Below, piece by piece: positions 38,926 through 60,224 of a stretch of DNA of 64,000 nt. The position numbers and the translations under genes are program-made. The notes under the pieces are model-generated. The model saw only the letters and a list, made by a program, of their open reading frames with translations, made no database searches and was not told where the DNA came from. Every line of letters begins with the position of its first letter. The first letter of the stretch is position 1. This DNA comes from Zygnema cylindricum (taxonomy: Eukaryota > Streptophyta > Zygnematophyceae > Zygnematales > Zygnemataceae), in contig JBBHKE010000591.1 in the NCBI GenBank assembly GCA_037447655.1, positions 1 through 64,000 on the forward strand, given 5' to 3'.

Positions 38926-40022
38926 TGAAATTCTATGGGCTCCATTGCCCACAGAATTCGCAGATCCAAAAGAAGCTAATCTAGATAGTGCCGAATCCAA
39001 GTTGATATAAACCCAAATGAATGATCCCTTGACAATCAGAACCCCAATACACCTTCATCCCTGTGAAGAGAAGACCTTATGTGTGCTCAGTTCCACCACA
39101 GAATGTAAAGCTTGAATATGTGTTTTAAACAATATTCCCCACTTTGACTTTCCCACTGAAAAAGTGCCACCCTAGCACGTAAAGAATCTTACCGACTACA
39201 CCCGTGTGTAGCTTGGTCTCTCCTGAGTCCGCAGCAAAAAGAATCACTGAATTTGCTCACCCGAGCATTAAGTTATGGCTGGTCAAAGATGACCTTTATA
39301 GGTACAAGCTCTCTTAGAGAGAGGTACCTAAATATCACTAAGTCTTGGTCTGCCTACTCACGACTAACTACTACTAAACCCTAGTCCAATAGGAACACTA
39401 TATAGTATAAGAAGGTACGATGGGCGATGTACTTATTGCACGGCCATTGTACGACATGGTCTACAAGGTGACATTTGCCAAATCGGGAGCCATGGTTCCT
39501 CCTCCCATATTCTCCGATATCAAATAATGTGGCGCCACGTCGCACCGCGTGAGGCTATCCCCAAAGGCCGCCGAAAGCTTGTTGTGGGTGGCCGTTGTAA
39601 TGGTGGGCGTCCGATCAGTTGTATTTATACGACTTCGATTCGCTTCAATGCATGAATTGATTAATGCGCATTTTCGTTAGTCTGCTGCGAATTAGTTCTT
39701 TAGATTAATAGATATATATGCATGAAACATATTACGTGTATCGTTTTGTTAGTTCCTTAATGAATAAGGCGTAGGTCTACATAGAATTCTGCAGACCCCG
39801 GTTCAAATCCGGCCAGAACCACTGTTTTGCTAAAACTAGAAAAATACCTTCTAATTCATTTTGCCTCTTTCTAAATGACGCAGCAGCCATGACCTGCCTT
39901 TGGTCCTCTCTTTCTCTCTTTTTACATTCTAACTAAAATATATAAGTGAACTATTAATTACTTTTTTTCAACACTCTATTTATTTTTCCAATACAGACCT
40001 AGAAAATACATAAATTTCAACA
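38926..40022 (-). repeat. LTR shared by copia copies M1 and M2 (1097 bp)
   Basis: On the minus strand it starts TGTTGAAATTTATG at 40022 and ends AGAATTTCA at 38926, followed directly by the M1 primer-binding site GGTTATGGGCCCACC. It is both the 3' LTR of M2 and the 5' LTR of M1, so the pair is a tandem LTR-internal-LTR-internal array. It carries an antisense tRNA-like module (39743-39828). Confidence 0.85.
39743..39828 (+). promoter_or_regulatory. Antisense tRNA-like module in the M1/M2 LTR
   Basis: A-box-like CCTTAATGAATAAGGCG, an arm with GGTCT..AGACC, then a strong B-box/T-arm CCGGTTCAAATCCGG and TTTT at 39825-39828. The outer bases CGTTTTG and CAGAACC pair at 5 of 7 positions. It runs opposite to the LTR. 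Pol III use is inferred. Confidence 0.6.
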
Positions 40023-41721
40023 CCCAATATTTTCTAGTCTATTTTCTTTTCAACTCTCACTAAACACATTTTTTTTTCCTTTTCTTTTTTTTCTTTCTTT
40101 TCTCCTCATAAAACTGTAAGTGAATACCCTCGTATTTAAACAAGTGTATTAGATGAGCTGAAATAATAATTACATCACACATTTTATTTTGCATGCCATT
40201 TTTCATAAATTCGAGAAAGAAATTTATCCACCTCATCTTTTCCATCCACACTAAATCAAATTTCCTTGTTGCAATTCAAACAGCCAGCCCCATCTCCAAT
40301 CTGCAACACACACCCAGATGCTAACCCTTTTACAAGCACACCTTCATAAATGCCATCACTCCCATTAGTGATGTCAAATCCATTACCCCCCAAATTTTCC
40401 CAAAAAACAAGTGTCCCCACTAAGTTCCTCATAAGATCTACGTCTTCCGTAATCATATTTTTATCCATGATACTCACCCCATATTCAGAACTTTCCTCAC
40501 TCTCTCCCATGGAATTCTTTTCGCTATCACTTTCTATTTTTATTCTTAATGAATATTTCTCCTCCCCTAAACCTATCATTAAATATTCCTCTTCTCCCCT
40601 ATCTTTAAAAGTCCCCTCTAGATTTACTTCTCCCCTTTCCTCGGAATCCGTCGAAGTCTCCCTTTTCGACCAGTTTTCTGTTTGCAAAATATCTATAAAA
40701 TTATCCTCATTATTTTTATTCTTCCCTTTTTCAATTATAGATTCTAGATCTGACTTGATATACTCTTTCACATCCACATCATGTCGAACTCCTTGAAGTA
40801 CCTCCCTTCCCTTTACTTCCCTTATACCTCCTAAAGTACACTATTGCTTTCGTGGAATTTCCGTGTACTTTTCTCTCTTCTTCATTCTACCGATGTGGAG
40901 AAGCTCTAAGATATCTTTATCCTCTTTGTGCTCTTCCCTTTTGTCCTCCTCATCCACATTCCAACTTCTAAGTTCTTCCAAACAAGGGCAACCCTCCATA
41001 TAATGACCCGGTTCCCTATAAAAGAAGCAAACCCTCTTTTTTAAAGCTCCCCGTTCTTTTCCTCTCCCTCTCTTTCCACCAATGTTCCGATAAGGTTTAC
41101 CTTCGTCTTTCTTCCTCTCATCACGCTTCCGCTCGTCACCGCCGTTCCTGTCATCACGCTTCCACCAATCACCACCAGCTGTAAATGCATTCACCTTGTC
41201 ACTTCCCCTACGAAGCTCCAAAGTGCTTTCCCTCACAAGAATTATCCCCATGGTAAAGCTCCAAGTCAATGGGGAGCCACCCATTACCTGCATACGATAA
41301 ATGATGTTTCGTACTCATCTGGGAGTTTCATGAGTAGTGTATTAATCTTTCTCTCCTCAGACTCTACATATCCCGCACTAGCAAGCTCAACATATAACGC
41401 AGCAATATCATTGCAAAACTCTATCATGCTACCGCCTTTATAAACATAGGCCCCTATTTCTTGTTTTACTAACTGTTGCCTCTGAATAGTCTCACTCTTA
41501 TAAATCTGACTTAGTGTTTCCCAGATTTCCGAAGACTTGGTTAGACTTAAAAGAGTGATAGCTATAGACTTAGACACATATCTAAGTATGAGATGTTTTG
41601 CTATAGTGTTTTTATACTCCCAAATTTTACTATCATTTTCGTCAGTTTGCTTATAACTCCTCCAAGTGGAGCTGTAGCGGAGAGCTTAGCTCCCCTCACC
41701 ATAGGTGTCCCTTTATCCTTC

Positions 41722-42767
41722 TGTAGAAACTAATGGTTTTTATTAGTATTTTCTAGGTCTGAAAAGAAATATAGAAGCCGAGGCAGTCTATCTCTAACTT
41801 CTCTCTCCAACTCTCAAACTTGTCGCAGTCACTAAGAAATTGGAGAGGAAGCTAGAGCCATGGCTACCTTGGCTATCCTGAGGTTCACGGGAATTTTATA
41901 TTAGGGTTTATTTATTTAAAAGGTATGTGCCGGCGGCAGGATTTGATCCTTGTACCTACCGGCCGGTAGACAGGAAATAGCCGGTAACCTTAGCCGTTAA
42001 GTCTAGCAATAGTGTTACATACTATATAGTTTGATATTTACTTAAATAGGTATACGTACGATAAATCATTTAACTGTTATGGATTACGGGATACATAGAT
42101 CCAATAATATATAATGTACGAATTACGGTACGGACAAAAATCAATACCGCGCATTTGTTTCGTAAGTGAAACAAATACCGCGCATGTATTTATTACGGCT
42201 ACGATTAAATCCGAATTCAATCGGACGGCCGGGATTAGCGCCGAGATCGCGGAGGAAGATTTCGGCGGTTTGTGGCCATCGCCACATCGGATGACGCGTG
42301 GTGAAATTCCGTTGGATTGTGGAATCTCCGGAAATTATGGCACCGAATCCGGATTTGACATGTGTCAATATTTTGGCCATGTCGTACAATGTCCGTACAT
42401 AAAGTACACCGGAAGCTGTACTTTTGCGTACGGAACTCAATTCTGATTGGTTCCGTACATCAGTAGATAGAGTCTGTGAGAGAGATAGGACTTAGAAAAA
42501 TTAGAAGATAGGACCCCCTCTCCCAAAGAGCTGCTGTACAAAAGGTCAACTTTGACCCTCCATAACTTACTGCTCAGGGGAGCAAATTCAGAGATTCTTT
42601 TTGCTATCGACTCAGGGGAGTCTTGCCTTCACAAGGGTGCAGGTGGTCAGGGTTTTTGTCTTCCAGGGTGGCAGTTATTTTTGCTGAAACACAAAGGGGT
42701 CAAGATTATCCTAGAGGCTTCTTGGAAGCTGACTACTCTGAGGACTTATGGAGGTCTCAGAGTTGCA
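41722..42767 (+). mobile_element. Solo LTR C1 (1046 bp), target duplication CCTTC
   Basis: Starts TGTAGAAACTAATGG and ends GTCTCAGAGTTGCA, with CCTTC at 41717-41721 and 42768-42772. Removing it rejoins the M2 gag sequence as in M1. It shares TATTTTCTAGGTCTG with the other LTRs and has no internal region. Confidence 0.9.
41918..42006 (-). promoter_or_regulatory. Antisense tRNA-like module in solo LTR C1
   Basis: Minus strand: A-box-like TAGACTTAACGGCTAAGG; stem halves TACCGGC and GCCGGCA (6 of 7 pairs) enclosing AAGGATCAAATCCTG; terminator TTTT at 41918-41921. Confidence 0.55.
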
Positions 42768-43148
42768 CCTTCTCCCTTTTTTTCCCTTCCATGGCAATTA
42801 TTTTCCCTTCATCTTTCGTTACATCTGAACTCCACTTGGTTTTTTGGGAAGCCCCAGATGATTCTGAGTTCCACGAAAGCCGGGTGGCGTACACCTCAAT
42901 TGCCCCGAAACAATTCCCCACAAATGCTTTTCAAAAAGCAATCCCTCCATCGTAAACTCCCAATAAATGAAGTATGTTCCATCGAACATAGACACCCTAG
43001 ATGGTGGGCCCCATAACTTGAAATTCTATGGGCTCTATTGCCCACAGAATTCGCAGATCCAAAAGAAGCTAATCTAGATAGTGCCGAATCCAAGTTGATA
43101 TAAACCCAAATGAATGATCCCTTGACAATCAGAACCCCAATACACCTT

Positions 43149-44322
43149 TGTTGATATTTGAGTATTTTCTAGGTCTTTATAGAAAAAGAGCAAAGGAAGT
43201 CTGTCCCTGACTCCCTTCTCCAAGCCCCTACACTTGTTGTAGTCACTGAAGGCTTGTTAGGGAGCTAGAGCCATGACTGCCTAAAGCTCACTAGAGAAGA
43301 CAAGGGGTGGATTAGATAGATTTACTAAAAGTTACATGACGGACCCAGGAATTGATCCTGGTACCTGTCGTCCGTCAAGTTACATTAGCCGTTAGCTCTA
43401 ACCGTTAAGTCTAGGACATATATTACGATATGTAGGGTTTGATAAATATTTAAATTGTCACATGTATATTAATTCGTTTAACGGCGAATAGATACTTAGT
43501 GCATAGATACAGTTTGACTTAGTACGAAGTACGGTATGGTGACAGAACGGATACCGCACATTTTTTTCGATAGCGAAAAAAATACCGCGCGTCGAATTTC
43601 AGCGGCTAAGATTATAGTCGGTTTTGATCGGACGGCCGCGATAGGCGCCGCGATCACGGAAAAGGTACTTTTGGCGTTTTACGGTCTTTGCCACGTCAGA
43701 TGACACGTGGCGTGATAACATTGGATTACGGGAATTCCGGAGATTACAGGAACTAATCCTGATTTGACACGTGTCGACATTTTGGCCATGTCGTACAATG
43801 GTCGTACAGAAAGTACACCTGCACTTGTACTTTTTTGTATGACACAGTAATTTGATTGGTGCCGTACTTTAATAGATAGAGTTTTAGAGGGGAAATAGGA
43901 CTTAGAAAATTTTGGGTAGATACCTGCCTCTCCCAGAGAGCACCTTGTATAAATGGCGAACTTTGGCCAGCCATAACTATCAATTTACTTGACCATTTTC
44001 AGTGATTCTTTTTGTTGCGGACTCAAGGAGTCCAAGCTACACACGGGTGTAGTCGGTCAGAGTTTTTGTCTGCCAGGGTGGCGGTATTTCTAAGGGAAAG
44101 TCAAAGTGGGTGAATATGTCCAAATCTTATATTTTAACTTTGCATTTTGTGGTGGAACTGAGCACACAGAAAGTGTTATTTCACAGGGGTGAATCGATAT
44201 TGGGGTTTTGACTGTCAAGGGGTCAGTCATTTGGGTTTATATCAACTTGGAGTCGACACTATCTAGATTAGCTTCTTTTGGATCTGCATACTCTAAGGGC
44301 CAATGGAGGTCTCAGAGTTTCA
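43149..44322 (+). mobile_element. Solo LTR C2 (1174 bp), target duplication ACCTT
   Basis: Starts TGTTGATATTTGAGTATTTT and ends GTCTCAGAGTTTCA, with ACCTT at 43144-43148 and 44323-44327. It interrupts the 5' LTR of M2. Confidence 0.9.
43327..43415 (-). promoter_or_regulatory. Antisense tRNA-like module in solo LTR C2
   Basis: Minus strand: TAGACTTAACGGTTAGAGC (A-box-like); perfect 8-bp stem TGACGGAC/GTCCGTCA; perfect 5-bp T-arm CCAGG-ATCAATT-CCTGG; oligo-T at 43327-43330. Confidence 0.6.
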
Positions 44323-45015
44323 ACCTTCACCACTGTGAAGAAAAGACCTTCTGTGTGCTAAGTTCCACCACAGAATGCAAAGCTTGAATATGTGTTTTGG
44401 ACAATATTCCCCACTTTGACTCTCCCACTGAATAAGTGGCACCCTGGCGCGCAAAGAATCTGACGGACTACACCCTGTGTAGCTTGGTCTCCCCTGAGTC
44501 CGCAACAAAAAGAATCACTGAATTTGCTCACCCGAGCATTAAGTTATGGCTGGTCAAAGATGACCTTTATAGTTACAAGCTCTCTTAGAGAGAGGTACCT
44601 AAATATCACTAAGTCTTGGCCTACCTACTCACGACTAACTACTACTAAACCCTAGTCGAACAGGAACACTATATAGTATAAGAAAGTACGATGGGCGATG
44701 TACTTATTGCACGGCCAATGTACGATATGGTCTACAAGGTGACATCTGCCAAATCGGGAGCCATGGTTCCTCCTCCCATCTTCTCCGATATCAAATAATG
44801 TGGCGCCACGTCGCACCGCGTGAGGTTATCCCCAAAGGCCGCCGAAAGCTTATTGTGGGTGGGCGCTGTAATGGTGGGCGTCCGATCAGCTGTATTTATA
44901 CGACTTCGATTCGCTTTTATGCATGAATTGATTAATGCGCGTTTTCGTTAGTCTGCTGCGAATTAGTTCTTTAGATTAATAGATATAAATATATGCGTGA
45001 AACATATTACGTGTG

Positions 45016-45104
45016 TCGTTTCGTTAGTGCCTTAATGAATAAGGCGTAGGTCTACATAGAATTCTGCAGAACCCGGTTCAAATCCGGCCTGAAGCACTGT
45101 TTTT
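45016..45104 (+). promoter_or_regulatory. Antisense tRNA-like module in the M2 5' LTR
   Basis: Second copy of the module at 39743: CCTTAATGAATAAGGCG, GGTCTACATAGAATTC, CCCGGTTCAAATCCGG, then TTTTT at 45100-45104. Confidence 0.6.
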
Positions 45105-45297
45105 CTAAAACTAGTAAAATACCTTCTAATTCATTCTGCCTCCTTTTAAATGACACAGCAGCCATGACCTGCCTTTGGTCCTCTCTTTCTCTCTCTTTAC
45201 ATTCTAACTAAAATATAGAAGTGAACCATTAATTACCTTTTTTGAACACTCTATTTATTTTTCCAATACAGACCTAGAAAATACATAAATTTCAACA

Positions 45298-48200
45298 AAG
45301 TCCATGGGAGTGGTACATTTGTTTCCCTTTTCCATCTGGAATTTCTCTAGCAGGTTACCTATTGTTTCTTTATGAGTAAGTCTAATGATCCTTTCCTTGT
45401 CTCTCTCCATTTGAATTCCCAAAATATATATTGCCTCCCCTAAATCCATCATTTCTATTCTGCTTCTAAGATCTTTGTTTAACTTATTGATCTTTTCCAA
45501 AGACTTACTTAACACTAACAGGTAATCCACATAAATTGCAATAAAAATCACACCATTCTCATCTTCAAACATATAGATAGAGCGGCACAGCTTATTCACA
45601 TATATCCCAGACCGGTGAGAAACTCATCTAGTTTCTTATTCCACTGTCGTGGAGCCTGCTTCAGCCCATATAAGGACTTTATGAGCTTGCAGACCATGCT
45701 CTCTTCTCCTTCCTCCACGAACCCCTTTGGTTGCCGCATGAAAATTTCTTCCTCTAACTCACCATTGAGAAAGGCGGTCTTAATATCCATCTGGTGTATT
45801 TCCATGTCTTCCGCTGCCGCTAGACTGAGGAGGATCTTTACTGATGGGAACCAAACAATTGGGGCAAAAGTCTCCTCATAGTCAATCCCCTCCTTTTGGG
45901 TGAACCCCTTTGCTACCAACCGAGCCTTATATCTCTCAAGGGTATTATCTAGGTTTAGTTTTAGTTTAAACACCCATTCACAACTAATCGGTTTTCTGTT
46001 CAGAGGACAGTCCTCTAGTTCCCAAGTATTTGCTTCCATGATGGAGGCCATCTCATCATTTATGGCTAAAATCCATCTTTCTTTCTCTGGACTGTTTACT
46101 GCCTCCGAGTAAGAATGAGTCTCATCTGGGTGAGATAGCTAAGTTACCTTATGAGCGGCTTGTTTTTCCTGTATCCTTTTGCTGCTCTTTCTCCCTCCCT
46201 CAAACTCCGAAGCTGGAATGGAGGGAAGTCTAGGATTTCTCCTTATTGTCTCATCGGCTCCCCTGTCCATGGAAGCCGGTTCCGATTCTTCCTCTTCTGT
46301 CTCCTCGAAGTCCATAGGAATATGTGAGGTTTCCCGTGAGTCTTGTGTATTTTAGATCTCCCCTGAATCTACAATCATGGTTTCACTCATGTCCCTTTCG
46401 GGAGCGACCGAGTTCTCCTCACTTTCGGACTCAAATCTGATTCTTATCTCCTTGGTATATTTGAAGGGGTCAAATAACTTCCCTTCATCCATGACAACTA
46501 GGTGTTTGACTAGAATGATATCTTTTTTTGCTAAGTCATAGACTCTATATCTCTTGACATCCTCATCATATCCTACAACGTATCCAGGTTTTTCCTTAGC
46601 ATCTAGTTTCCAGTTTTTCCTGTCCGTGTCAAAAAATTAAACTTGGCTACCGAATACTATAAGGTGAGAAATATCTGGTTTTCTCCCAACGCATCTCTCA
46701 TAAGGTGTCATTCCTTTTACGGTTGAGGTAAGGTTTATATTCTTAAAGTAGTTGGCACAGTTCATGGCTTCTGTCCAAAATCTCTTTCCTATTTTTTTAT
46801 CGGCCAACATACTACATACACTATCTCCTAGTATTCCGTTCAACCTCTCAACTACCCCATTTTGTTCCGGTTTATATGGTACAGTTTTTTGGTGTTGAAC
46901 TCCCTCATCTCTCAAGTATTCCTCAAACTGGTTAGAGGTATATTCTCCCCTATTATCACTCTTTATTCTCTTAACGGGGGTTTCATGCAGCTTCTCACTC
47001 CATGCTTTATATTCTTTGAAGTAAGTTGGTGTTTTAGACTTTGTTTTAAGGAAGTAGACTCTAGATTATCTAGACCAGTCATCGGTTATTGTCAACATAA
47101 ATCTTTTCCCTCCGACCGAGAGTACTTTTGCGGGTCCCTAGATATCTGTGTGGAACAAATCTAGAACTTTCTCACCCCTATATGTGGCGGCTTTGGGGAA
47201 GGGAAGTCTGTGAGCCTTACCTTGCGCACAACCACTTTATCCCCAAACTGAATGCCTTCTACTACACCAAGCTTCTTCATTTCCCTCAGCCTATCAAAAT
47301 GCACATGTCCCAGCCGCTTATGCCAAATCATCAACTTTGGAACACCAACATAGTAAGCATTCTTCTTTTCATTACTAGGGTTAAGCCTAAACATTCCTTG
47401 GCTACCGTTATCTGCCGTGAAGTAGACTTCAACCCCATACTTAGTCGTAAAGACTCCCTTTCTAGTGAAGGTATCAAACTCTTTGTTATTAAACACAAAC
47501 TTAGAGACAAGATTTTTTACTCAGCTGTGCATAGATGCACTTGAGTCGATTATCTATCCTTCCTTTGGAGCTTCCCGAATTGCTGCGAGAGTACACTTCT
47601 GTTTCTAATGGATCTCTTTCTCCTCCAGACTCTCGTCAAGAAGAAGCTCAAAGGACTCGACCTCGGTCTCTCCTTTCACTTTTGTGACCACAAGTGTTTT
47701 TTTCTTCCCTCCGAAAGAACCCCCTCCACAGTTCTCTTGGAGCCTCAGTTTCGACAACTTAACAAAATCCGCTATGAAGTGTCTTAGCTTTTTGCAAAAA
47801 TGACAAAGACCCTTTGGGGGCTTCGGTCCTCCAAACTAATCTTTCTCTCCTTTGTACGGTTTCTTTGGATCCTTCCCCCACCGGTTTGCTCTTGCAGCTA
47901 GAGCTTGGATGCTCTATCCCCCTCTCCTAATCTCAATTGTGTTTTCCTACACAAGTATCATCCGGACCACTGTGTTCCACTTCCATGAACTGTCTGTCAT
48001 TTCCTGTACTTAGTACACAATGTTTTCATAATCGTCGGGTAACTTCATGATGAGAGTGTTAAATTTCATCTTCATTGTACCTGTCCACCTGGCACTCTCC
48101 ATCTCCATATAAAAACAAGAGAGATCATTACACTAGTCTAACATCTTTCCCCCATTGTAAGTATAATTCCCTAACTTCTGCTCTGCCAACTGGAGCTACT

Positions 48201-48618
48201 GAATAGTACCATCTCTATAGATCTCCACCAAACTCACGCACAACTCCTCGGCCTTATAAATGTAAAGATGCGGGGTCGCCAAAGCCTGGGTGAGGTGTCT
48301 TAGAATGAAGTTTTTGGCAGCCATGTTGATGTCTTCCCACGTTTGGGTATCGTTCTCCGCGGTTTTCAGGGACGTCGCTCCAGGTGCCATGGTAATAAGA
48401 GCATTTGGAGTAAAAAGCGTCTCCTTGCTGCAGCAGATGCTGCTCCAGAAAAACTTACTCCACCAAACCCTGGCGGAGTTCCTTAAGGTGGACGTTTCAC
48501 TTGTCCACTAACAATACCCCAGTATTGTTTTTCGCACAAAGCCCCCATCATCATGGCTTCCCAATAGATGAACCCTGATCCATTGAAGGTGGGTACCCTA
48601 GAGGGTGGGCCCATAACC
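45298..48618 (-). pseudogene. Copia element M3, gag-pol remnant, truncated by M2
   Basis: Minus strand from PBS 48604-48618 and ATG 48614. The gag is broken by many stops. CHFCKKLRHFIADF is a failed zinc knuckle near 47800. Pre-integrase WHKRLGHVHFDRL lies near 47310, and an integrase C-terminal part PEQNGVVERLNGIL at 46637-46915. Reverse transcriptase at 45596-46051 has VFKLKLNLDNTLERYKARLV and SLYGLKQAPRQWN; a following frame (45255-45599) has the active-site box as YVDY instead of YVDD. The sequence stops at 45298, where the LTR of M2 begins inside RT. RNase H and the 3' LTR of M3 are not found in this window. Confidence 0.82.
48604..48618 (-). other. Primer-binding site of M3
   Basis: Minus strand GGTTATGGGCCCACC directly follows the LTR end CA (48619). 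It matches the anticodon arm of plant initiator tRNA-Met, as in P and M1. Confidence 0.75.
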
Positions 48619-49339
48619 TGCTATTCTGTGTCCTCCTTCGGACTCCAGACTTCGGAAGCCTCTAGATAGTTTTTAACTAACCCACTTTCAGCCACAACCA
48701 CTGCTGCCCAAGTAGACAACTTGACAGTTTGACTGCACCCTTGTGCAGCGTGGACTCCCATGAGTCAGTAGCAAAAAGATTCACTGAAAACGACCAACCA
48801 ACCGATAAGTTATAAGGTGGCAAAGATGCCAATTTAAACAAACTCTCAAAGAGAGAGGTGACTGTCTACAAAAAAGTTACTAAGTCCTAAACCCCTCTCA
48901 CAACCCATATCTACTATAGTGCGATCAAATCAATTCACTATGTAGTACAAAAAGGTACTGCGACCGATGTACTTTCTGTACGGCCTGTGTAGGACAAGGC
49001 CATTGAGTGGACGCGTGTCCACGTTTTACTCGTCCTTATGTTCCCCGAAATTTTCGCGACCAAATGTTATCTCTCTACGAGGCACCACGTCATGCCACGT
49101 CCAAAAACGCCAAAGTGACCATTTCGGGATCTCGGCGTCGACATATGTTGTTGGATTAAATTCGACATTAAATGTCAGCCGTCGAAACAAATGTCCGATT
49201 TATTTGTTTCGTGCGGGATCTCGTTCACACGGTATTTTAACTAGTTTTGTGTTCCTTTATTTATAATTCAGTTAATCGGTTTCAAGATCCTGTCACATTT
49301 GGAGTATTTATCAAACACTATATAACTTAACAAACTTCT

Positions 49340-49417
49340 ACGACACACCGGTTAGAGCTGACGGCTAGGCCTCGCTCTGCTGGTAGGAGGTTCGAGTCCT
49401 GCCGGACTCAACCTTTT
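49340..49417 (+). promoter_or_regulatory. Antisense tRNA-like module in the M3 LTR
   Basis: A-box-like ACCGGTTAGAGCTGACGG, then a canonical B-box AGGTTCGAGTCCTGCC, and TTTT at 49414-49417. This has the most tRNA-like T-loop (TTCGAGT) of the set; the acceptor stem is degenerate. Confidence 0.6.
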
Positions 49418-49497
49418 GTTTGAGAGTGACTTATGTCACTCTTTAGTCGTGCCTATGGAGCTAAGGCAGCCATGGCTCAACCACCCTCTCTATCCTT

Positions 49498-50676
49498 TAT
49501 TGATATTTGAGTATTTTCTAGGTCTTTATTAGGATATAAAAAGAGCAGAAGCAGTTTGCCTCTGACTCCCTTTTCCAAGCCCCCACACTTGTTGCAGTCA
49601 CTGAAGGCTGAAAAGGGAGCTAGAGCCATGGCTACCCAAGCTCTCTAGAGAGACAAGTGTAGATAAATGGTAGGTTTACTGAAAGGATGTTGACGGACCC
49701 AAGATTCGATCCTGGTACTTGCCGTCCGTCAAACTTCACATAGCAGGTAGCTTTATCCATTTAGTCTAGGGCTAGTGTTAAGACATATAGGGTTTGGTAA
49801 GTATTTAATTAGTTACACGTAGGCTAGTTCATTTAACTAGAAATAGATACTTAGTGCATAGATATAGTTTAAATTAGTATGGAATACGGTAAGGTGACAA
49901 AACGGATAGCGCGCATTTGTTTCGATAGCGAAACAAATATCGCGCACCATTTTTTAAAGGCTACAATTGAATGTCGGTTTAGATCTAACGGCCGCGATAG
50001 ATGCCGAGATCGCGGAGTAGATTTTTGGCAATTTGCGGTCACCGCCACGTCAATTGACACGTGGCAATATTACATTGGCTTGCGGCATATCCAGGGATAA
50101 TAGGAACAAATCTAGATATGGCATTTGTCGACATTTTCGCCATGTCGTACGATGACCGTACAGAAGGTACACCGGCACCTTTACCTTTATATACTTTACA
50201 GTTTTGTTATTGGTTCGTACCTTAGTACTAGGGGGCTTAGAGAGGGGTTTTAGGACTTAGAATATTTCTGGTAGGTAGCGCCTCTCTCAGAGAGCACTTT
50301 GTATAAATGGCAAACTTTGGCCAGCCATAACTATCAATTTAGTTGACCATTTTCAGTGATTCTCTTTGCTGCCGACTCACGGGATTCCAAGCTAGACAGT
50401 GGTGTAGTCGGTCAGAGTTTTTGCCTGCCTGGGTGGCTGCATTTTTAAGGAAAAGTCAAAGTGGGTGAATGTGTCCAAAAATTATATTCTAACTTTCCAT
50501 TCTGTGGTGGAACTGAGCACATAGAAAGTCTTATTTCACAGGGGTGAAGCTGTAATGGGGTTCTGATTGTCAAGGGGTCAATCAATTGGGTTTATATAAA
50601 CTTGGAGTCGACACTATCTAGATTAGCTTCTTTTGATCTGCGAATTCTGTGTGGCAATGGAGCCCATAGAATTTCA
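49498..50676 (+). mobile_element. Solo LTR C3 (1179 bp), target duplication TCCTT
   Basis: Starts TATTGATATTTGAG (TG mutated to TA) and ends CCATAGAATTTCA. TCCTT is at 49493-49497 and 50677-50681. It interrupts the M3 LTR and is closely related to C2. Confidence 0.88.
49682..49770 (-). promoter_or_regulatory. Antisense tRNA-like module in solo LTR C3
   Basis: Minus strand: TAGACTAAATGGATAAAGC (A-box-like, weaker); 9-bp perfect stem TTGACGGAC/GTCCGTCAA; T-arm CCAGG-ATCGAAT-CTTGG (one wobble). No run of four T follows, unlike the other copies. Confidence 0.5.
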
Positions 50677-50807
50677 TCCTTCAGTGACTACAACAAGTAT
50701 GGTGGCTAAAGAGAGGAGGTGTAGGCAGGCTGTCCGCCTTTTTATTTTTCCATTTTACTGGTCTATTTAGACCTAGAAAATACCGTATAAATCTAGTAAT
50801 TTCAACA

Positions 50808-51996
50808 TGTTCCAGCGTATGTACTTAAAACATAGTACGAGTATAATCTTCAAAAGTTCAAAAGTTCAACTATAGTTCAAAAGTAGGCGTTATCATGTTT
50901 GGCCCTAGTTGTTCACTACGCGAGGTTTTTTCCTTTTCCCAGTTTCTACGTATTGTACGTGACTTTTCAAAAAATCGCAAAAAAACGTCTACTGTAAACT
51001 GAAACTGAAATTTTACGGCAACCTATAGACAAATTACGGTAACTGTTAGAATTTTACGGAAATTGTACGGTAATTGACAAAAAGATTCGATGCTCGTTTC
51101 AATAATTTCTGATAAGTAAACTGAACAGAATGTACACGGAATGTACGGGAAAATATCGTGACGTCTACAGACATTTCCAAAAAGAGACATTGCGGCGTCA
51201 CACTATTTGAGCGCCGTTAGTTTAAAATGTGTACGGGCATCTTCTTCAAATTTTTGAAAAGAAGCCGCCATAAATACTTTAACAGTTGAATGCGAAAATT
51301 CAAGGAAGACGCCATTACCGACGCCATGGCAGTAGTTAGTAAACTCTCGGAGGGGTAGAGAGAGAAGGCCGTGGCTGCCTGTCTGTGAACGACAATTATT
51401 ATGACAAAAGATTAACATTTCGCAGGAATTGAGCCTACGCCCATGTACGTCGTCTGGTATCTACTGGTAGACTTGTCTTTAACCAGTTGATGTAGATTTT
51501 TTGACGCATGCGTGAGGTGTGATAACATTTTAAATACATATTTAATTTTACCACTCATTTAACGAAAAGCGTACAAACTGCGGTACATATTCAATTCATT
51601 TTTTTTAACATGTGTGGATTTATACGGAAAAGAATCATTAACGTTTTTTACAATTTTTTCAGATTGACCTCTCCAATTTCTACGTATTGTGCGCGCGTTC
51701 GAATCGTGCGTAGAATACGTTTTGAACAACAATGTGGTAGGCCTTTGGTAGGCGCACAAAACTTGGCACAAAACTTGGCACAAAACTCGCGCATAGTAGG
51801 CATACTGTATGTGTGTGCGGTTTGCACACCCCTGTACGAACGTACGAATCTGACGTATGATCATAGTACAGCCCACGTCGCCGAACGAATTTTTTTAGCG
51901 AACTGACACGGCTTAGGATGACATTGCGCAGAAAAAAACCGGGAAAAAAAAAAACCGCGGACGGGCAACCAAACAAAGTTTATACCTTGAATGAAC
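50808..51996. repeat. Repeat-derived interval (copies of CATAGTT-element left half and CCGTA-rich repeats)
   Basis: 50873-50900 has a CTATAGTTCAAAAGTAGG terminus. 50975-51170 contains TTTTACGG/AATTACGGTAA motifs, an inverted relative of 21505-22295. 51720-51960 matches 30960-31190 (GCGCACAAAACTTGGCACAA, GAATCTGACGTATGATCA, CACGGCTTAGGATGACATTG). No gene. Confidence 0.55.
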
Positions 51997-52773
51997 CATA
52001 GTTTAAAAGTAGGCGTTTTTATTATTGTTGTGTATCGGTAAAAAACTTATCGCGATAACACCGATATCGATAGTTATCGGTTATCAAACGCTCAAAGGTT
52101 CGATGTATCGGTCCGAGACCAACAAATTCCATATTGGCGATAACTTAAAATATACGCATACTATAATACTTTATAATATAGAATACTACATTATTCACAT
52201 TATATAGCGTGGCATGCCACATATAACAATCTGTTCCGTTTCTACTTAACTGAAAATGATCACGGACAACGCATCACGTAAACGTAGACAAATTTAAAAT
52301 TTATAGTTTTTTTGCAACCACCAACGGGTAGGTTTTAGTAATATTTTTGGCAGTGTGGAATATTTTTTTTTTTTCGTCCCATAAGCCTGGTTGGTCAATT
52401 TGAGGCTTTATTTAGTGTGGCCTTCAAAATTGCAGGCGCTAACATGACAGATTCTCATATCGTAAGTTGTGTTATAGGCTTCTCATGTGATCTTCTTATA
52501 TCGCTACTTTGATCAGCGACCGTTAGATCGTCCAAAATCTGAAGGTTTAGATAAAAAGTACCTCAAAACTCACAAAAAAATATTTTTTTGTCCGAATGTT
52601 TTTCAAAATTTAAACATGACGTTTAATTCTCTATCGATCGACGTGCAGCTCAACCCTGCTACTATTTATTTTCCTTTTGCGGCCAATAAAATATGGGTCT
52701 TAAGGTCATATTGTATGTTTTGCTTACAATAGGCATATTGTATGGGCATACTTTCATGTACTTTTCAACTGTG
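51997..52773. mobile_element. CATAGTT-AAAAGTAGG transposon copy (about 777 bp)
   Basis: The left end is CATAGTTTAAAAGTAGGCG and the right end is ..TACTTTTCAACTGTG (inverted, decayed). Internal 52310-52760 matches 31230-31690. It also contains a CGATATCG-rich block like the hAT-like ends. Flanking 8-mers do not match, so the boundaries are less sure. Confidence 0.5.
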
Positions 52774-53235
52774 ATTAATACAGTGAAAGCGCGGCAAACT
52801 TTGGACAGCGCAGCAAACTCTGGACAGTGGATACCAAGTGGATGGTACTTTTGGTGGGCTGTTCGTTGGAACCTCCAGCCAGGGTGGCCAAAAGCACATG
52901 GCGTGTACGACGCGTTCGGTTCTCATCGCCTGTTCGTGTTGGCGATTTGTTTTACTTTTCACTTGTACATTGCGCGCATCGTCCAAGGTGTACATCGCCC
53001 ACATCGTCCAGTTTGAAGAGACTCGAGTCTCTTCAAACTGAACGATGTGCGGGATTGCTTCGCGAATCTAAAAAAGTTAAAAATCCAACGGTCGATACTT
53101 ACGCCTATAATAGTGGAGCCATCCAGTAAACATGTTTCGTCTGACAAAAATAAAAAAGTGTACGAATCTGTACGAAAGCGTACAGCGTCCAGTAAACAAC
53201 CCCACTTTTCCTCTAATGGAAGTTCACCCTAACCT
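52774..53235. repeat. Repeat 'R-d' with central hairpin (53001-53048)
   Basis: Paralogue of R-c. The hairpin centre is GACTCGAGTC with arms of CAGTTTGAAGA type (16 perfect pairs, 23 with one mismatch). The right end CTAATGGAAGTTCACCCTAAC is the inverted form of the GGGTAACRTTCCATYAG terminus of R-a/R-c. Confidence 0.68.
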
Positions 53236-54015
53236 CCCAAATTGCGACGGGCCTAGCCGTACAGAATCTACTGTAGAAATGTGACCGTGTTCACCATTTT
53301 GAAAGTGAATCCAACACAGGTACTATAGCAGCCCGTTTTTTTAAACAAGAATCGGGAATGACCCAATATTGAAATCAAAATTGGTAAACGTTGGTAATGA
53401 ATTCGACACCTGGCACTAGGTCGTTAATTAACTTTGCTTACGGTAGAGTACAACGCACATCACTTATAGAGTTAATGAATTATTAGGGATGACGCTTTAA
53501 TGGATATAGTTACATTACATTATGTTTTGAAACGTGTCTTTTTTATAGCCGCACATTTGCATAGCTGCTAACAATTATTTTATGAATTCGGATAAAAAAA
53601 ACTCTACCTGAAATTAGAGTGAATAACTCTAATAGCGATGGGCGATGTCTTGTAGTACACGCGTCTTTGCAGTTGTCCTCGATTTGAGTTGTACGTAAAG
53701 TGCAGGTGCCATGTAGATTTGTTTAATGGCCGTTGGCAATTTAGTTATAACAAGAAGAAGAAGATTTTATTTCGAAGAACGCGATTGTAATACCATAAAA
53801 GTACAAAATATGATTGTCACTAAAAAGTATTGATGACCAACGAAGGTTAAAGACCAAAATCCTAAAGGACTAAAAACACAACAAAAATGCGTGAAAAGCC
53901 TAAAAGGAAAGAAAGAAAGCAAGTATAACAAAACCAAACTGTGGAAACACTACAAACTAACCTAGACGCTAAGCCCTCAAACTATACCCAACTAAAGATC
54001 AAAACTATGGATATC
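53236..54015. other. No supported gene; possible TA-MITE relative
   Basis: Around 53449-53646 there is a weak inverted pair (CGCACATCACTTATAGAGTTA against AATAACTCTAATAGCGATG) resembling the 20957/22863 MITE ends. Nothing else was recognised. Confidence 0.3.
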
Positions 54016-54903
54016 TGTTAAAAAGAGGTAATTAATAGTTCACTTCCCTATTTTAGTTTTGTTTTAAAGAAAGAGAGTAAGGATCAAAAGCGCGCCATGG
54101 CTGCCGCCATATTTAGAAAGTGGCAGTTTTTGCAGTTAAGGGTATTTTGGCTAAAATGATGCCTAGGTCTAGATCTGAACTTGAGACCTCTAGATTCTTA
54201 ATAGCCTAACGCCTTAACCATTAAGGCGTTATGAAATGATCCACAATGGGTTTCATAAATATATAAATACTAACGAAACAGCTAATTAACAGCAGACTAA
54301 CCAAAAGGAGCAATTTCTGCATGTACGCGAATCTGAACCGTGTAAAATATGTTTTGATCGGACGGCCGGCATTATAGCCGCCACGCGAAGTGAGCTTTTT
54401 GGCGGCATACGGATATAGCGTCACGCGGTGCCACGTGGCGCCACATTATTTGATACCGGAGAAGATGGGAGGAGGAACCATGGCTTCCGATATGACAGGT
54501 CTCACCTTGTAGACCTTGTTGTACAATGGTTGTACAATAAGTACATCGCCCATTGTACCTTCTTGTACTTTATAGTGTTCCTATTGGACTAGGGTTTAAT
54601 AGTAGGTAGTCGTGAGTAGGCAGACCGAGACTTAGTAATATTTAGGTACCTCTCTCTCTAAGAGAGCTTGTAACTATAAAGGTCATCTTTGACCAGCCAT
54701 AACTTACTGCTCGGGTGAGCAAATTCAGTGATTCTTTTTGCGTTTGACTCAGGGGAGTCTTGTCCTCACAAGGGTGAGGTGGTCAGAATATTTGTGTGCT
54801 TGGGCGGAGCTTATTCAGCGGGAAAGTAGAAGGGGCAAATATTATCCTAGAGGCTTTACATAAGCTGCTCATTCTGTGGGTCAATGGAGACCACATAATT
54901 TCA
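54016..54903 (+). repeat. 5' LTR of copia P (888 bp)
   Basis: TGTTAAAAAGAGG..ATTTCA; nearly identical to 59334-60224. It contains an antisense tRNA-like module at 54153-54231. Confidence 0.93.
54153..54231 (-). promoter_or_regulatory. Antisense tRNA-like module in the P 5' LTR
   Basis: Minus strand: TAACGCCTTAATGGTTAAGG (A-box-like, as in Ser/Leu tRNAs; also an 11-bp hairpin), AGTTCAGATCT (weak B-box), TTTT at 54153-54156. Confidence 0.5.
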
Positions 54904-54918
54904 GGTTATGGGCCCACC
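54904..54918 (+). other. Primer-binding site overlapping the gag start codon
   Basis: GGTTATGGGCCCACC directly follows the LTR. It is complementary to the anticodon arm of plant initiator tRNA-Met, the mode known for Drosophila copia and yeast Ty5 (half-tRNA primer). The ATG at 54908 inside it is the first Met of gag. Confidence 0.78.
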
Positions 54919-57900
54919 CTCTAGGGTACCCATATTTGATGGATCAGACTTTCTTTATTGGGAAATGATGATGGAGGGAGAACTATTTGAGAAGCATCTA
55001 TGGGGCAGAGTGTCTGGACAAATTCGATGCCCACCTCCACCTGGGTTTGGAGGGACACGTTTTTCTGGCACCTCCGCCTCTACAGTTGGTAGTACAGCTG
55101 CCACCATCACCGAGGATGAAGATGAGGAAGGAGAAAAGATTGTCATGGAAGGAGAAAAGGAAGGAGTTGCAACTCAAGTAACACCATTGCCGAAGGCGAT
55201 ACCGGCAGCAACACCACAAGCAACAACGACAAGGGTTCAGACCGAAAGATCAGAGTATGAAAAGTGGAACTACAAAGACAAGGTTGCTAAGCTCGTAATT
55301 CTTAAAAGTGTAGCAAAGGGCATTGCCATTCCCCTTATGCATGTCAAATCTTCATCTCAGATTTGGATATCACTAGTTAACAAATATAAGAGTGGATCAT
55401 TGCAGCAGCAACAGTTGGCAGAAAATAAGATTGAAGCTTATACTTATAAGGGAGGAAGTATGGATAATTATTGCAATGATTTAGGAGCATTGTTTGGAGA
55501 GTTAGAGAGTGCAGGTAACTCATGGTCTGAGAGACAAAGAGTGAACACATTAATGATGAAACTACCTGAAGAGTATGAGAATATCATTAACCGATTGCAG
55601 GACATAGGAGATAGCAATTGGAATTGGGATGACACTGTGGGAATGATTTTAGTGAAAGAAAGCACCAAAGAGCTTAGGAGAGGGAGTCCAAGTGTTCAAG
55701 CATTGTCTGCAGGAGCTGATTGGCGGAAGCGTGATGAGGAGAGAGGGAAAGATCCCTATCGAAACTTTGGTGGAAGAGGACAAGGAGGTGGCAGATTTGA
55801 TAGACAGGGGAGAGGAACTTCTCGATGAGGATTATGTCACTTCTGCAAGAAACCGGGACACTATATGGCAGATTGTGTCAGACTTGCAGATCTTCGACTG
55901 AAAGATGGTCAAGGAACCTCAAAGGACGGAGGAAAGAAAAAGGCTTTCCTGACTGAAGTTGTTGATGAGGAAGTGGAAGAAAAAACTGAACCTGAAGAGG
56001 AGCTTTAGGAGCGTCTCCTTAATCCGAAAAACACTGAAAAGCATCTCGACATTCCACGGAGACAAAAGTGTGCTTTCGGAGGTAAGAGGGATCCACCCGA
56101 GGATGGGTGGATCATAGACTCAGGGGCTTCAATGCATATGTGCAAAGATAAGCGGTGGTTCACTAAACTGAGAAAGAACCCAACAGTTGAGATAGAGTAC
56201 GGAGATGGTAGAGTAGAAACCACAAGTCTTGTTGGAACTGTTGACTTGAAGGTTCTAGTTGATGGAAAGGCCTCAATGGTAACACTCTCAGACGTTCTTT
56301 ACATTCCACAACTTAGCAAGAACCTAGTCTCAACAGCTGTCCTAGATGAAAAGGAGTTTGAAACAGGAACTAGGAAAGGAATCTTCACAGCAAGCTTTGA
56401 TAATGAGGTTTATTTCATAGCTGAGAAGGGCAGTCAAGGAATTTTCAGAATTGTACTTTGCAATGAAAAGAGTGTTCTCTACTCGTGTGCAAGTGAGATG
56501 ATGCTTTGGCATAAAAGGTTGGGGCATGTGCATCTAGATAGATTAAAGAAAATGAAGAAAAGGGGAATAGTGGAGGGTATTACTTTTGAAGATGATGAGA
56601 CCTTTGATGATTGTAGTGGATGTGCCCAAGGGAAGATTCATAGACTTCCATTTCCAAAGGCAACCACATTTAGGAGAGAGAAAGTATTAGATCTAGTTCA
56701 CACTGATGTTTGGGGACTTGCTAGGTATGCTTCACATGGGGGGAAGAGATGGATGTTAACTATCATAGATGATTGGTCTAGATACACGAAGGTATACTTT
56801 CTCAGACATAAGTCAAAGGTATTAAGATGTTTCAAAGAGTATAAAGTATGGAGTGAAAAGCTACATGAAACCTCAATAAAAGAGATAAGAAGTGATAATG
56901 GGAAAGAATACACCTCAAGGGATTTTGAAGAATATCTTAAAGAAGAAGGAATTCATCATGAGAAAATTGTTCCCTATAATCCGGAACAAAATGGAGTAGC
57001 AGAAAGAGTGAATAGAACTTTAAGAGATATGTCCAGAAGTATGTTAAGTGATAAGAGGATAGGGCTGTAGTTTTGGGCTGAGTCTATGAACTATGCTAAT
57101 TTCATCAAAAATAGAGTCCTAACTTCAGCAAATAAGGAGGAAACTCCGTATGAGAGGTGGACAGGAAGAAAGCCTGATTTGTCTAGTTTGAGAGTGTTCG
57201 GAAGTCAAGTCTACAGTTTGGATTCCGATAAGACTAAATGGAAGTTAGAGGGAAAAGGGAAACCAGGATATCTTGTAGGATATGATGAGAGCACAAAAGG
57301 ATACCGAGTGTATGACTTGAAAAAGAGAGATATAATTTTGGTATAACACATAGTGGTGATGAATGAAGAGAAGTCCATTGATCCATTCAAATATAATAAG
57401 GAAGTCAAAATCAGATTTGAAACGGATCAGTTTTCTGACTTTGACTTTGAAAAGGAAGAGAAGGAAGAGGGAGAAAAAGAAAAATCTGCAGATCTACCAA
57501 AGGAGAAGGAGGAAAGGACAACATCCGAGGCAACGCCACAATACGAAGTGGAAACCGATGAGGAACTTGATGAGACACCGGAATTGGAAGATAGGGAAGC
57601 TGAAAATCTCCCAAAACGAAACCCAAGGATGCCTTCCATACCGGCGTCCGATTTTGAAGGGGGAAGAAGAAGTAGTAAACGACTTCAGGAAAGACAAGTA
57701 AATAACCAACTCACAAAGATGTCTCACCCACATGAACCTCAAACATACTTAGAGGCCATAAACACTCCAGAAAGTAGCCGGTGGATCACAGCTATAAATG
57801 AAGAAATGGCCTCTATCATGGAAGCCAATACATGGGAGTTGGTAGATTGTCCACCGGATCGAAAACCGATCGGATGTAAGTGGGTGTTTAAACTAAAATT

Positions 57901-59320
57901 AAACCCGGATAATACCATTGAGAGGTACAAAGCTAGGTTAGTTGCAAAATGTTATACACAGAAAGAGGGGATAGACTACGAAGAAACCTTTGCACCTGTA
58001 GTCAGATTTCCTTCTGTTAGAATCCTTTTAAGTATAGCCGTAGCGGAGGATATGGAAATCCACCAGATGGATATTAAAACTACCTTTTTGCATGGAGAGG
58101 TGGAAGAAGAAATTTACATGAGGCAACCGGAAGGATTCGTGGAAAGTGGGGAAGAAAACAAAGTTTGCAAACTGATAAAATCACTCTATGGGCTTAAGCA
58201 AGCCCCGCGACAGTGGAATGTAAAACTCGACGAATTTTTGACCGGTTTGGGGTATATCATAATTAGTTCAGATCACTCTATATATTTATTTGAGGATGAG
58301 AATGGAGTGATATTTATTGCTATTTATGTGGATGATTTGTTGGTCTTAAGCAAGTCCTTAGATAAAATTAGCAAACTAAAACGGGATCTTAGAAGCAGTT
58401 TTGATATGAAAGATCTTGGCGAAGCAAAGTACATTTTGGGAATTCAGATGGAGAGAGATAGAGGGAATAGGATTATAAGGCTCACTCAAAAAGAAGCAAT
58501 CGGTAATATGCTAGAAAAATTTCAAATGGAGAAAGCAAACGGATGTACTACTCCCATGGATTTGAAGAAAGTGAGTGAGCGGAGTGAAGAGGGAGGAATA
58601 TTCATCATTAATGATGAGATGGACGAGATAGAAAGAAAATTTATGGAAAATATCCCTTATCGGCAGATTGTAGGCAGTTTAATTTATTTTATGAAGTGTA
58701 CCCGTCCGAATATAGCTGCAGCTGTAGGTGTCATTAGTAGAAATCTAAATGAACCAAGAAAGAGAGATTGGGAGGCTGCCAAAAGGGTGATGAGGTATCT
58801 GGTGGGGACAAGGGAATTATGGTTGCATTTGGGAGGGGAGCACACTGACATCACCACTTGGAGTGATGCCAGTTATGGAGATGTGCCTTTAAGGAGGTGT
58901 ACGACTGGATATGTGTTGCAAATTGGATCCGGTGCATGTTGTTGGAGTAGCAAGCAACAAAAAGTAGTTGCTCAGTCCACTATGGAGGCTGAATACATGG
59001 CTTCTTGTGCTGCCACCAAAGAATTAATGTGGGTTAAATCTCTTCTTGAAGAACTTGGGTTCATGAAGTCTGGAACTCAACATGTTTTTTGTGATAATCA
59101 AGCTGCTATCTCGATTGCAGCTAATCCGAAACATCACTTCAAAGCTAAGCATATGGATATTAGACTAAGCTTTGTCAGAGAGAAGGTAGAAAATAAAATT
59201 ATTAAACTGGTTCATAAAACTGATAGAGAAATGATTGCAGACATGATGACAAAAGCAGTGCCTTCCCCTAAGTTGATTTATTGCAGAGAAAACTGTGGAT
59301 TAAAATTGAAAAGTGACTAG
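54908..59320 (+). pseudogene. Copia P gag-pol, one frame with four nonsense codons
   Basis: A single frame spans gag to RNase H with no frameshift. It is broken at TGA 55826-55828, TAG 56006-56008, TAG 57068-57070 and TAA 57344-57346. Gag starts MGPPSRVPIFDGSDFLYWE and has a UBN2-type core. The CCHC knuckle at 55835-55876 is CHFCKKPGHYMADC. Protease: IIDSGAS, Asp codon 56117. Pre-integrase: MLWHKRLGHVHLDRL. Integrase Asp (56705), Asp (56894), Glu (57002). RT: WVFKLKLNPDNTIERYKARL, SLYGLKQAPRQWN, YVDD at 58325-58336. RNase H: WSDASYGD, TMEAEYMAS, CDNQAAI. The final stop is 59318-59320. All visible catalytic residues are kept, so decay is recent or limited to the stops. Confidence 0.92.
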
Positions 59321-59333
59321 GAATTAAGGGGAG

Positions 59334-60224
59334 TGTTGAAAAGAGGTAATTAATAGTTCACTTCCCTATTTTAGTTTTTCTTTAAAGAAAGAGAGTAAGG
59401 ATCAAAAGCGCGCCATGGCTGCCGCCATATTTAGAAAGTGGCAATTTTTGCAGTTAAGGGTATTTTGGCTAAAATGACGCCAAGGTCTAGATTTGAACCT
59501 ATGACCTCTAGATTCTTTTTTGCCTAACGCATTAACCATTAAGGCGTTATGAAACGATACACGTGACGGGTTTCATAAATATATAAACATTAACAAAACA
59601 ACTAATTAACAGCACACTAACCAAAAGGAGCAATTTCTGCATGTACGCGAATCTGAACCGTGTAAAATATGTTTTGATCGGACGGCCGGCATTATAGCCG
59701 CCACGCGAAGTGAGCTTTTTGGCGGCATACGGATATAGCGTCACGCGGTGCCACGTGGCGCCACATTATTTGATACCGGAGAAGATGGGAGGAGGAACCA
59801 TGGCTTCCGATATGACAGGTGTCACCTTGTAGACCTTGTCGTACAATGGTTGTACAATAAGTACATCGCCCATTGTACCTTCTTGTACTTTATAGTGTTC
59901 CTATTGGACTAGGGTTTAATAGTAGGTAGTCGTGAGTAGGCAGACCGAGACTTGGTAATATTTAGGTACCTCTCTCTCTAAGAGAGCTTGTAACTATAAA
60001 GGTCATCTTTGACCAGCCATAACTTACTGCTCGTGTGAGCAAATTCAGTGATTCTTTTTGCGTTTGACTCAGGGGAGTCTTGTCCTCACAAGGGTGAGAG
60101 TGGTCAGAATATTTGTGTGCCTGGGCGGCGCTTATTCAGCGGGAAAGTAGAAGGGGCAAATATTATCCTAGAGGCTTTACATAGGCTGCTCATTCTGTGG
60201 GTCAATGGAGACCACAGAATTTCA
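59334..60224 (+). repeat. 3' LTR of copia P (891 bp)
   Basis: TGTTGAAAAGAGG..AGAATTTCA, preceded by GGAATTAAGGGGAG (polypurine tract). Confidence 0.93.
59471..59549 (-). promoter_or_regulatory. Antisense tRNA-like module in the P 3' LTR
   Basis: Minus strand: TAACGCC and GGCGTCA form an acceptor-like stem (6 of 7). Inside are TTAATGGTTAATGCG and a better B-box AGGTTCAAATCT than in the 5' LTR. TTTT at 59471-59474 follows the stem exactly where CCA would be. Confidence 0.58.

Follow-up and report, generated by a model that had tools for sequence, protein, structure and literature searches.

Antisense tRNA-like A- and B-box modules in the long terminal repeats of Ty1/copia retrotransposons of Zygnema cylindricum

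Long terminal repeats (LTRs) of Ty1/copia retrotransposons in a 64,000-nucleotide stretch of the Zygnema cylindricum genome (contig JBBHKE010000591.1, positions 1 to 64,000; hereafter the window) contain a short module that resembles the A and B boxes of a tRNA gene and reads on the strand opposite to the LTR. A first-pass annotation had reported the module at eight sites. All eight hold antisense tRNA-type A and B boxes, with coordinates and strands correctly given, and TTTT follows in seven of them, the exception being the site at 49682-49770, where TTTC is found. We identified a ninth site. The module-bearing LTRs are approximately 890-1100 bp long, and we label their families C1 to C6.

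Three modules lie on the forward strand. Module C1a (39752..39828; A box 39752-39770, B box 39800-39810, TTTT 39825-39828) is antisense to the reverse-strand LTR at 38926-40022, and C1b (45027..45103; A box 45027-45045, B box 45075-45085, TTTT 45100-45103) to a reverse-strand LTR starting at 45297. Module C5 (49340..49417; A box 49340-49358, B box 49389-49399, TTTT 49414-49417) is antisense to the reverse-strand LTR at 48619-~49510. The other six modules are on the reverse strand within forward-strand LTRs. C2 (41918..42005; A box 41987-42005, B box 41939-41949, TTTT 41918-41921) lies in the LTR at ~41735-42770; this site (41918-42006) is the one for which the first-pass annotation described a TACCGGC stem. 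C3a (43327..43413; A box 43395-43413, B box 43348-43358, TTTT 43327-43330) lies in an LTR that begins at 43149 and has the acceptor-like stem TGACGGAC/GTCCGTCA. C3b (49682..49768; A box 49750-49768, B box 49702-49712), the module with TTTC in place of TTTT, is found in the LTR at ~49499-50672. The ninth module, C6 (51406..51494; A box 51476-51494, B box 51425-51435, TTTT 51406-51409), sits in a decayed LTR at ~51318-51900. The last two modules belong to a single element carrying gag and pol: C4a (54153..54229; A box 54211-54229, B box 54171-54181, TTTT 54153-54156) is antisense to its 5' LTR (54016-54903) and C4b (59471..59547; A box 59529-59547, B box 59489-59499, TTTT 59471-59474) to its 3' LTR (~59335-60222).

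The C4 element spans 54016 to ~60222, and its two module-bearing LTRs are 96% alike. Between them are forward-strand frames for gag (54899..55825; PF14223), a Pol beta-barrel domain and integrase (56009..57067; PF22936, PF13976, PF00665) and reverse transcriptase (RT; 57347..59317; PF07727). The order gag, integrase, RT (PF14223, PF00665, PF07727) is the Ty1/copia arrangement. A purine-rich stretch precedes the 3' LTR, and the coding stretch is broken by stops. Identity to the RT lies at 35-48% among the 120 matches listed; those with names come from plants, one bacterial metagenome-assembled genome record excepted. No relatives were found in a viral contig set by RT protein, primer-site pattern or RT alignment. 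The primer-site pattern matched 31 records in a genome contig set, all titled as bacteria or archaea, which we treated as chance.

Directly 3' of the C4 5' LTR is the primer-binding site GGTTATGGGCCCACC (54904..54918, forward strand). Three LTR ends in the window carry its first 12 letters (54904, and 48618 and 38925 on the reverse strand). We take GGTTATGGGCCCACC to be complementary to the anticodon arm of the plant initiator tRNA-Met (iMet), whose sequence we assume here, as in half-tRNA priming. We considered whether the module itself supplies the primer and rejected this, as the primer site matches tRNA-iMet instead.

The LTR families share parts of their sequence. The C1 and C4 LTRs are approximately 76% alike over 850 bp, those of C2 and C3 approximately 70% over 950 bp, and the C5 LTR is ~68-71% alike to C2 and C3 over 270-420 bp of its 3' half. 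The exact sequence TATTTTCTAGGTCT forms the LTR start in C1, C2 and C3 as well as in a partial LTR at 50769. Because of these shared parts the eight sites represent at most four or five independent lineages. The earlier description of eight LTRs from at least four diverged subfamilies is correct in that the LTR families are diverged, but the eight are not independent cases, as C1 is related to C4 and C2 to C3. Beside the end of the C3b LTR, at 50671-50806, lies the reverse-strand start of another LTR (TGTTGAAATTACTAG...) of approximately 130 bp, which is either truncated or nested.

To score the modules we used A- and B-box weight matrices derived from 26/27 covariance-model matches in a phage T5 stretch carrying tRNA genes. 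The training set is independent of the window, since it is built on phage T5 tRNAs alone. Across the 64 kb and both strands, the combined A+B score places the nine modules, each on the strand given above, at ranks 1-7, 9 and 10, with C6 second and an unrelated site, at 61774, taking rank 8. When 430-nt LTR pieces were dinucleotide-shuffled 300 times each, none of the shuffles reached the score of seven of the nine modules (0/300), and the counts were 4/300 for C4a and 5/300 for C2. The comparison with shuffled LTRs, on which the first-pass annotation had staked its reading, favors it both here and in the genome sample described below. A T5 tRNA covariance model run unfiltered gave 12 matches in the window at E<=10, five of which overlap modules on the appropriate strand with weak scores (8.7-12.4 bits); the match at 49713-49775 covers the A-box part of C3b but not its B box. 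ARAGORN reported no tRNAs in the window at default settings, and called six of the eight originally reported modules at strongly relaxed settings in a run without a control. We dropped Rfam and ARAGORN as sole tests, as the modules fall below their thresholds and both programs are uninformative on promoters.

How frequent the module is in the genome was estimated from LTRs sampled without reference to it. The 352.8 Mb assembly, which includes the window, holds 5,974 exact copies of GGTTATGGGCCCACC (3,019 + 2,955), compared with 6 (3 + 3) of a reversed control. We took the first 40 primer sites listed by contig order, together with the 1,150 bp preceding each, and left out one at a contig end (L196), giving 39 stretches, not all independent, as some neighbors carry near-identical modules (L186/L187, L205/L206, L211/L212). 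A unit was counted where the A+B score was at least 14 and TTTT began 9-18 nt after the B box. By this rule 29 of the 39 stretches carry an antisense unit and none a sense unit, while 0.9% of mononucleotide shuffles do. At a threshold of 12 the counts are 31 antisense and one sense (shuffles 2.3%), and at 16 they are 25 and zero (shuffles 0.3%). The module is therefore present in most LTR copies sampled in this way, and the claim that every LTR holds it, though true of the eight sites in the window, is too strong genome-wide (29-31 of 39). Eight stretches are without any unit at a score of at least 10. In four of these (L183, L190, L193, L213) the known LTR sequence upstream amounts to 0-528 bases only; a further 0.8 kb upstream of L183 had no unit with TTTT in place, the best site without it scoring 14.0. 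For primer sites in loci selected by the module, the best site was of module type and followed by TTTT in 19 of 26, a figure we do not use as a count.

A second sample, assembled by DNA searches with the module regions, returned 947 first-look candidates for C1, 1971 for C4, 4032 for C3, 396 for C6 and 4100 for C5, of which 40 were scored per family in this first look. The copies examined were 28 of the 40 listed for C1, 30 of 40 for C4, 30 of 42 for C3, 39 of 40 for C6 and 20 of 41 for C5, including C1a, C1b, C3a and C4a of the window. Since the search for these 147 copies relied on resemblance to the module region, the sample favors copies that have retained it, and copies within one family are not independent of one another. 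An antisense A+B score of at least 16 was found in 137 of the 147 (C1 26/28, C4 30/30, C3 26/30, C6 36/39, C5 19/20), and no copy reached it on the sense strand. TTTT lies at most 29 nt from the B box in 143 of the 147 and begins 9-18 nt past it in 138 of the 142 copies scoring at least 14, compared with 0.8-5.8% at an equal offset elsewhere in the same pieces. In C6 the distance from B box to TTTT ranges from 11 to 17 nt, yet TTTT is retained in 36 of 39 copies. Some of the listed C1 and C3 copies are same-strand pairs ~3.0-3.2 kb apart (e.g. C1116:179702/182875 and C1344:3404/6441), which suggests shorter, probably non-autonomous derivatives with module-bearing LTRs.

Read in the sense of the LTR, the order of features is the LTR start, the motif CATGGCTGCC, the antisense B box, the antisense A box and an AT-rich stretch. 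The A+T content at 30-45 bp upstream of the A box is 0.73-0.93 in the nine window modules, and a TATA-like pattern is present upstream of the A box in all C4 and C3 copies (30/30 each) and in 19 of 20 C5 copies. Plant tRNA genes have a TATA or similar element at -30/-24 and A and B boxes 30-40 bp apart (PMC7279448); their upstream regions are AT-rich and most have poly(T) downstream, and TATA boxes occur in only 22-32% of angiosperm tRNA genes (PMC11700998). The module has the anatomy of a type-2 RNA polymerase III (Pol III) gene: an A box, a B box, tRNA-like spacing and a terminator. Because this antisense layout matches that of a plant tRNA gene, we read the module as a Pol III unit of type 2 that faces outward, beside the promoter of the LTR. 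It is probably a tRNA-derived promoter within the U3 region of the LTR that faces away from the element, giving rise to a small antisense RNA and benefiting the element by opening its promoter. The sequence anatomy, orientation and prevalence of the module, and its conservation footprint between families (see below), are direct observations; factor binding, transcription, RNA length and benefit are what we infer from the sequence.

Extra-TFIIIC sites, which bind TFIIIC, suggest a different use of the same boxes: the module could act as a chromatin boundary or as a helper of RNA polymerase II (Pol II), with little or no Pol III transcript. Its place directly upstream of the AT-rich, TATA-like stretch of the LTR would suit a boundary, and the promoter positions are kept where the cloverleaf (see below) is not. 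However, a binding site alone needs no terminator, and TTTT is in place in 138 of 142 copies despite the variable distance in C6. We consider this reading unlikely. The position in U3 upstream of a TATA-like stretch would also be expected of a Pol II enhancer, or of a sense-strand RNA element, that merely resembles A and B boxes. In this connection CATGGCTGCC, which often reads GCCATGGCTGCC, lies 48-71 bp before the module in LTR sense (family medians) and is found within two mismatches in 143 of the 147 copies; in the window it is at 54096-54105, 59414-59423, 49465-49474 (reverse strand) and 51370-51379. The motif resembles the context of a start codon, or else a promoter element. We regard an enhancer or sense-strand element as hardly credible, since the module follows the degeneracy of the B-box rule, has the order and spacing of a tRNA gene and ends in a terminator on the antisense strand.

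The B box has the consensus GGTTCRANTCC, in which R and N are free. In a comparison of C1, C3, C5 and C6 anchored on the B box, mean identity between families is 0.73 in the box compared with 0.37 in the flanks. By position it is 0.91, 0.87, 0.48, 0.96, 0.82, 0.48, 0.96, 0.16, 0.95, 0.86 and 0.60, so that the degenerate positions dip (R 0.48, N 0.16) while non-degenerate ones are mostly at 0.82-0.96. The between-family profile mirrors the consensus. Identity in the A box is 0.52 compared with 0.30 in the flanks and peaks at six matrix positions (0.83-0.95), which the T5 alignment equates approximately with R15, G18, G19, position 20, A21 and G24. The best sites in shuffled pieces gave 0.44 for the B box (maximum 0.61) and 0.33 for the A box (maximum 0.49), and because of the latter the excess of the A box over this null is small. 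Conservation in C6 is lowest between the two boxes (0.656, compared with 0.883 for the A box, 0.798 for the B box and 0.824 for the flanks).

Compared within single families, the boxes show no significant excess of conservation over random blocks taken from the same LTR piece (p 0.13-0.67), so the signal of selection rests on the between-family comparison. This result, together with the LTR parts common to all families, is what would be expected if a tRNA gene or a tRNA-derived short interspersed element had inserted antisense into an ancestral LTR and been copied passively ever since; a SINE insertion of this kind has been proposed for Helenus elements (Kojima, PMC10886601). However, passive copying would not be expected to hold the non-degenerate B-box positions far above their flanks between families, or to keep TTTT at its place in nearly every copy. 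We think it quite unlikely that the module is only a fossil.

Whether the transcript itself is folded like a tRNA is a separate question. The T-arm pairs, two of the five of which lie within the B box, are formed in most copies at 5/5 positions in C3 and C6, 4/5 in C1 and C5 and 3/5 in C4. For the 3' acceptor strand, pairing with a 5' partner does not exceed that of shuffles in C1, C5 or C6, and in C4 does so only slightly. On this predicted pairing, the cloverleaf is not retained. In the C2/C3-type clade, however, the T-arm is closed by a stem of 7-8 bp whose register is fixed. At least seven of eight pairs form in 17 of 31 sampled modules of all types at this register and in none at six slid registers. 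Of the C3 copies, 26 of 28 have the stem, and those of C1, C4, C5 and C6 lack it. Among 14 distinct rows picked for at least six pairs, three pairs show double changes (AT-CG, GC-AT, AT-CG), the GC-AT change resting on one row. The stem shows covariation in this clade, but the double changes, counted without modelling shared ancestry, may reflect few events. The first-pass annotation had proposed a compensatory stem and a covariation test of the block; because the stem is confined to the C2/C3-type clade, the compensatory claim holds there and not in the other families. We rejected acceptor-stem covariation as a universal feature, since only this clade shows pairing with double changes.

Three tRNA positions outside the scoring matrices, G46, C72 and A73, are also conserved. 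They are kept in 30/30 C4 copies each, in 0.96/0.96/1.00 of C3 (n=28), 0.95/0.95/1.00 of C5 (n=19) and 0.81/0.96/0.93 of C1 copies (n=27), with lower values in C6 (0.87/0.63/0.26; n=38); G46 and C72 were present in all 16 modules of the first primer-site sample. These positions, the T-arm and the clade-specific stem would fit an RNA that folds as a tRNA-like structure or minihelix and serves for processing by tRNA enzymes, as a decoy or as a source of small RNAs. However, T5 tRNAs have G46 in only 11, C72 in 14 and A73 in 12 of 26, and because they so often differ there, fixation of these residues is no general hallmark of tRNAs. A73 is kept in few C6 copies, acceptor pairing is near shuffle level outside one clade, and the scores of tRNA models are low. 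We judge a tRNA mimic to be highly improbable. The earlier proposal of a tRNA-like antisense unit of Pol III type is thus borne out in its boxes, TTTT, placement and Cassandra parallel (see below), and its tRNA mimicry is weaker than was claimed.

Several results weigh against the interpretation as a Pol III unit, beginning with the within-family comparison. The Rfam tRNA model gave nothing at or above its gathering score in the window or in 20 scanned copies, and listed no match at E<=10 among those 20; scanned singly along with C5, C1b gave a full-length match of 12.3 bits, below gathering. R1, a weak covariance model built from 19 T5 tRNAs that we used only for ranking and for aligning T5 tRNAs, reached at most 16.7 bits across 79 copies. 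Four of the module-blind stretches (L203, L209, L216, L220) have a near-complete LTR yet carry no recognizable unit. In one of 26 longer pieces (L043) the best sense site scored above the best antisense site (17.6 compared with 16.2) when TTTT was not demanded. The TATA-like pattern is found in only 20 of 39 C6 and 8 of 28 C1 copies.

If the module is a Pol III unit, it would point to the 5' edge of the LTR from beside the AT-rich, TATA-like stretch. Pol III would produce an antisense RNA of ~90-105 nt ending at the TTTT found 9-18 nt past the B box, or TFIIIC at least would bind. The element would most likely benefit from having an open promoter, shielded from adjacent host sequence, beside its Pol II start. 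Its own RNA may in addition be a target of the small antisense U3 RNA, and the AT-rich stretch could also be used by Pol II for transcription in the LTR sense. A Pol III-bound antisense MIR repeat in Polr3e interferes with the Pol II gene in which it lies (PMC5358760). As an antisense Pol III unit can interfere with Pol II in this way, the module could either help the element, through open chromatin or insulation, or hold it back as a means of self-limitation. The MIR of Polr3e is a single insertion in a mammalian intron, whereas the present module is a built-in part of LTR families. More tentatively, a whole group of autonomous copia elements, whose primer-site junctions number in the thousands in this one genome, might have adopted an antisense micro-gene for Pol III as a standard organ of the LTR. 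The micro-gene would fire outward and keep the promoter open or insulated, and its U3-antisense RNA, with a covarying minihelix in one clade, would tune or protect the element.

The closest known systems are terminal-repeat retrotransposons in miniature (TRIMs). Helenus elements, known from fungi, animals and a single plant, Selaginella, are TRIMs whose LTRs are tRNA-like, and are grouped with Cassandra and Ajax as TRIMp3 (Kojima 2024, PMC10886601). They are 311-1263 bp long (screened at under 1000 bp) and encode no proteins of their own, and their tRNA part is proposed to make template RNA (PMC10886601). For many families the isotype model does not agree with the anticodon, so that a working tRNA is unlikely, and most fungal Helenus and some Copia elements of the same hosts are primed by a tRNA anticodon loop, above all that of iMet (PMC10886601). 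A long LTR stretch common to Helenus and an autonomous partner was deemed unlikely (PMC10886601). Like Helenus, the elements described here have tRNA-like A and B boxes inside the LTR. Unlike Helenus, which lacks coding capacity, C4 has gag, integrase and RT frames between its module-bearing LTRs. The module is also antisense, unlike the template-making placement proposed for Helenus, with sense units in 0/147 copies (score at least 16) and, among the primer-site stretches, 0/39 (at least 14 with TTTT) and 1/39 (at least 12). The comparison of orientation is by text only: the words 'antisense' and 'opposite' do not appear in the main text on Helenus, figures excluded (PMC10886601). Because of these coding frames and the antisense placement of the unit, we do not file these copia elements as Helenus.

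Cassandra TRIMs likewise keep a Pol III-type promoter in the LTR over long times, but theirs is of 5S rRNA type and the elements are non-autonomous (PMC10886601, PMC10853983). Primer sites for half tRNA-Met are known in the Osser, Bryco and part of the Gymco-II copia lineages (Neumann 2019, PMC6317226). The present plant Ty1/copia elements share such a site, on the iMet sequence assumed above, and carry a tRNA-like LTR module, which the portions of PMC6317226 available to us do not mention for these lineages. No antisense tRNA-like unit in autonomous copia LTRs was reported in the open-access literature searched, outside of which most subscription papers lie. Judged from their sequence, the elements extend the concept of a Pol III promoter in an LTR to a putative antisense module in copia elements bearing gag and pol.

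The usual view is that LTR elements depend on Pol II. If the interpretation is correct, a conserved outward Pol III unit in the LTRs of gag-pol copia elements would constitute a new layer of LTR control, and would suggest a route from autonomous LTRs to TRIMp3 elements. TFIIIC sites, and false positives in tRNA searches, would then be spread through the genome. The claim is testable, and bears on how retrotransposons keep their promoters open in silenced chromatin.

Three other features of the window were noted. For the reverse-strand region 26338-26784 Pfam gives a weak match, NDC10_II (E 3e-6, slightly above the cut-off), and the region perhaps encodes a Crypton-type or other mobile-element protein. 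Overlapping long frames occupy 61116-62690 on the reverse strand; the two that were scanned had no Pfam match, a search with one of them gave only one relative, distant and unnamed (30% identity, E 1e-8), and the region is perhaps a frameshifted gene. Finally, a near-perfect palindromic hairpin lies at 52993-53056, where Rfam gives a sub-threshold match to mir-5892 (25.4 bits).

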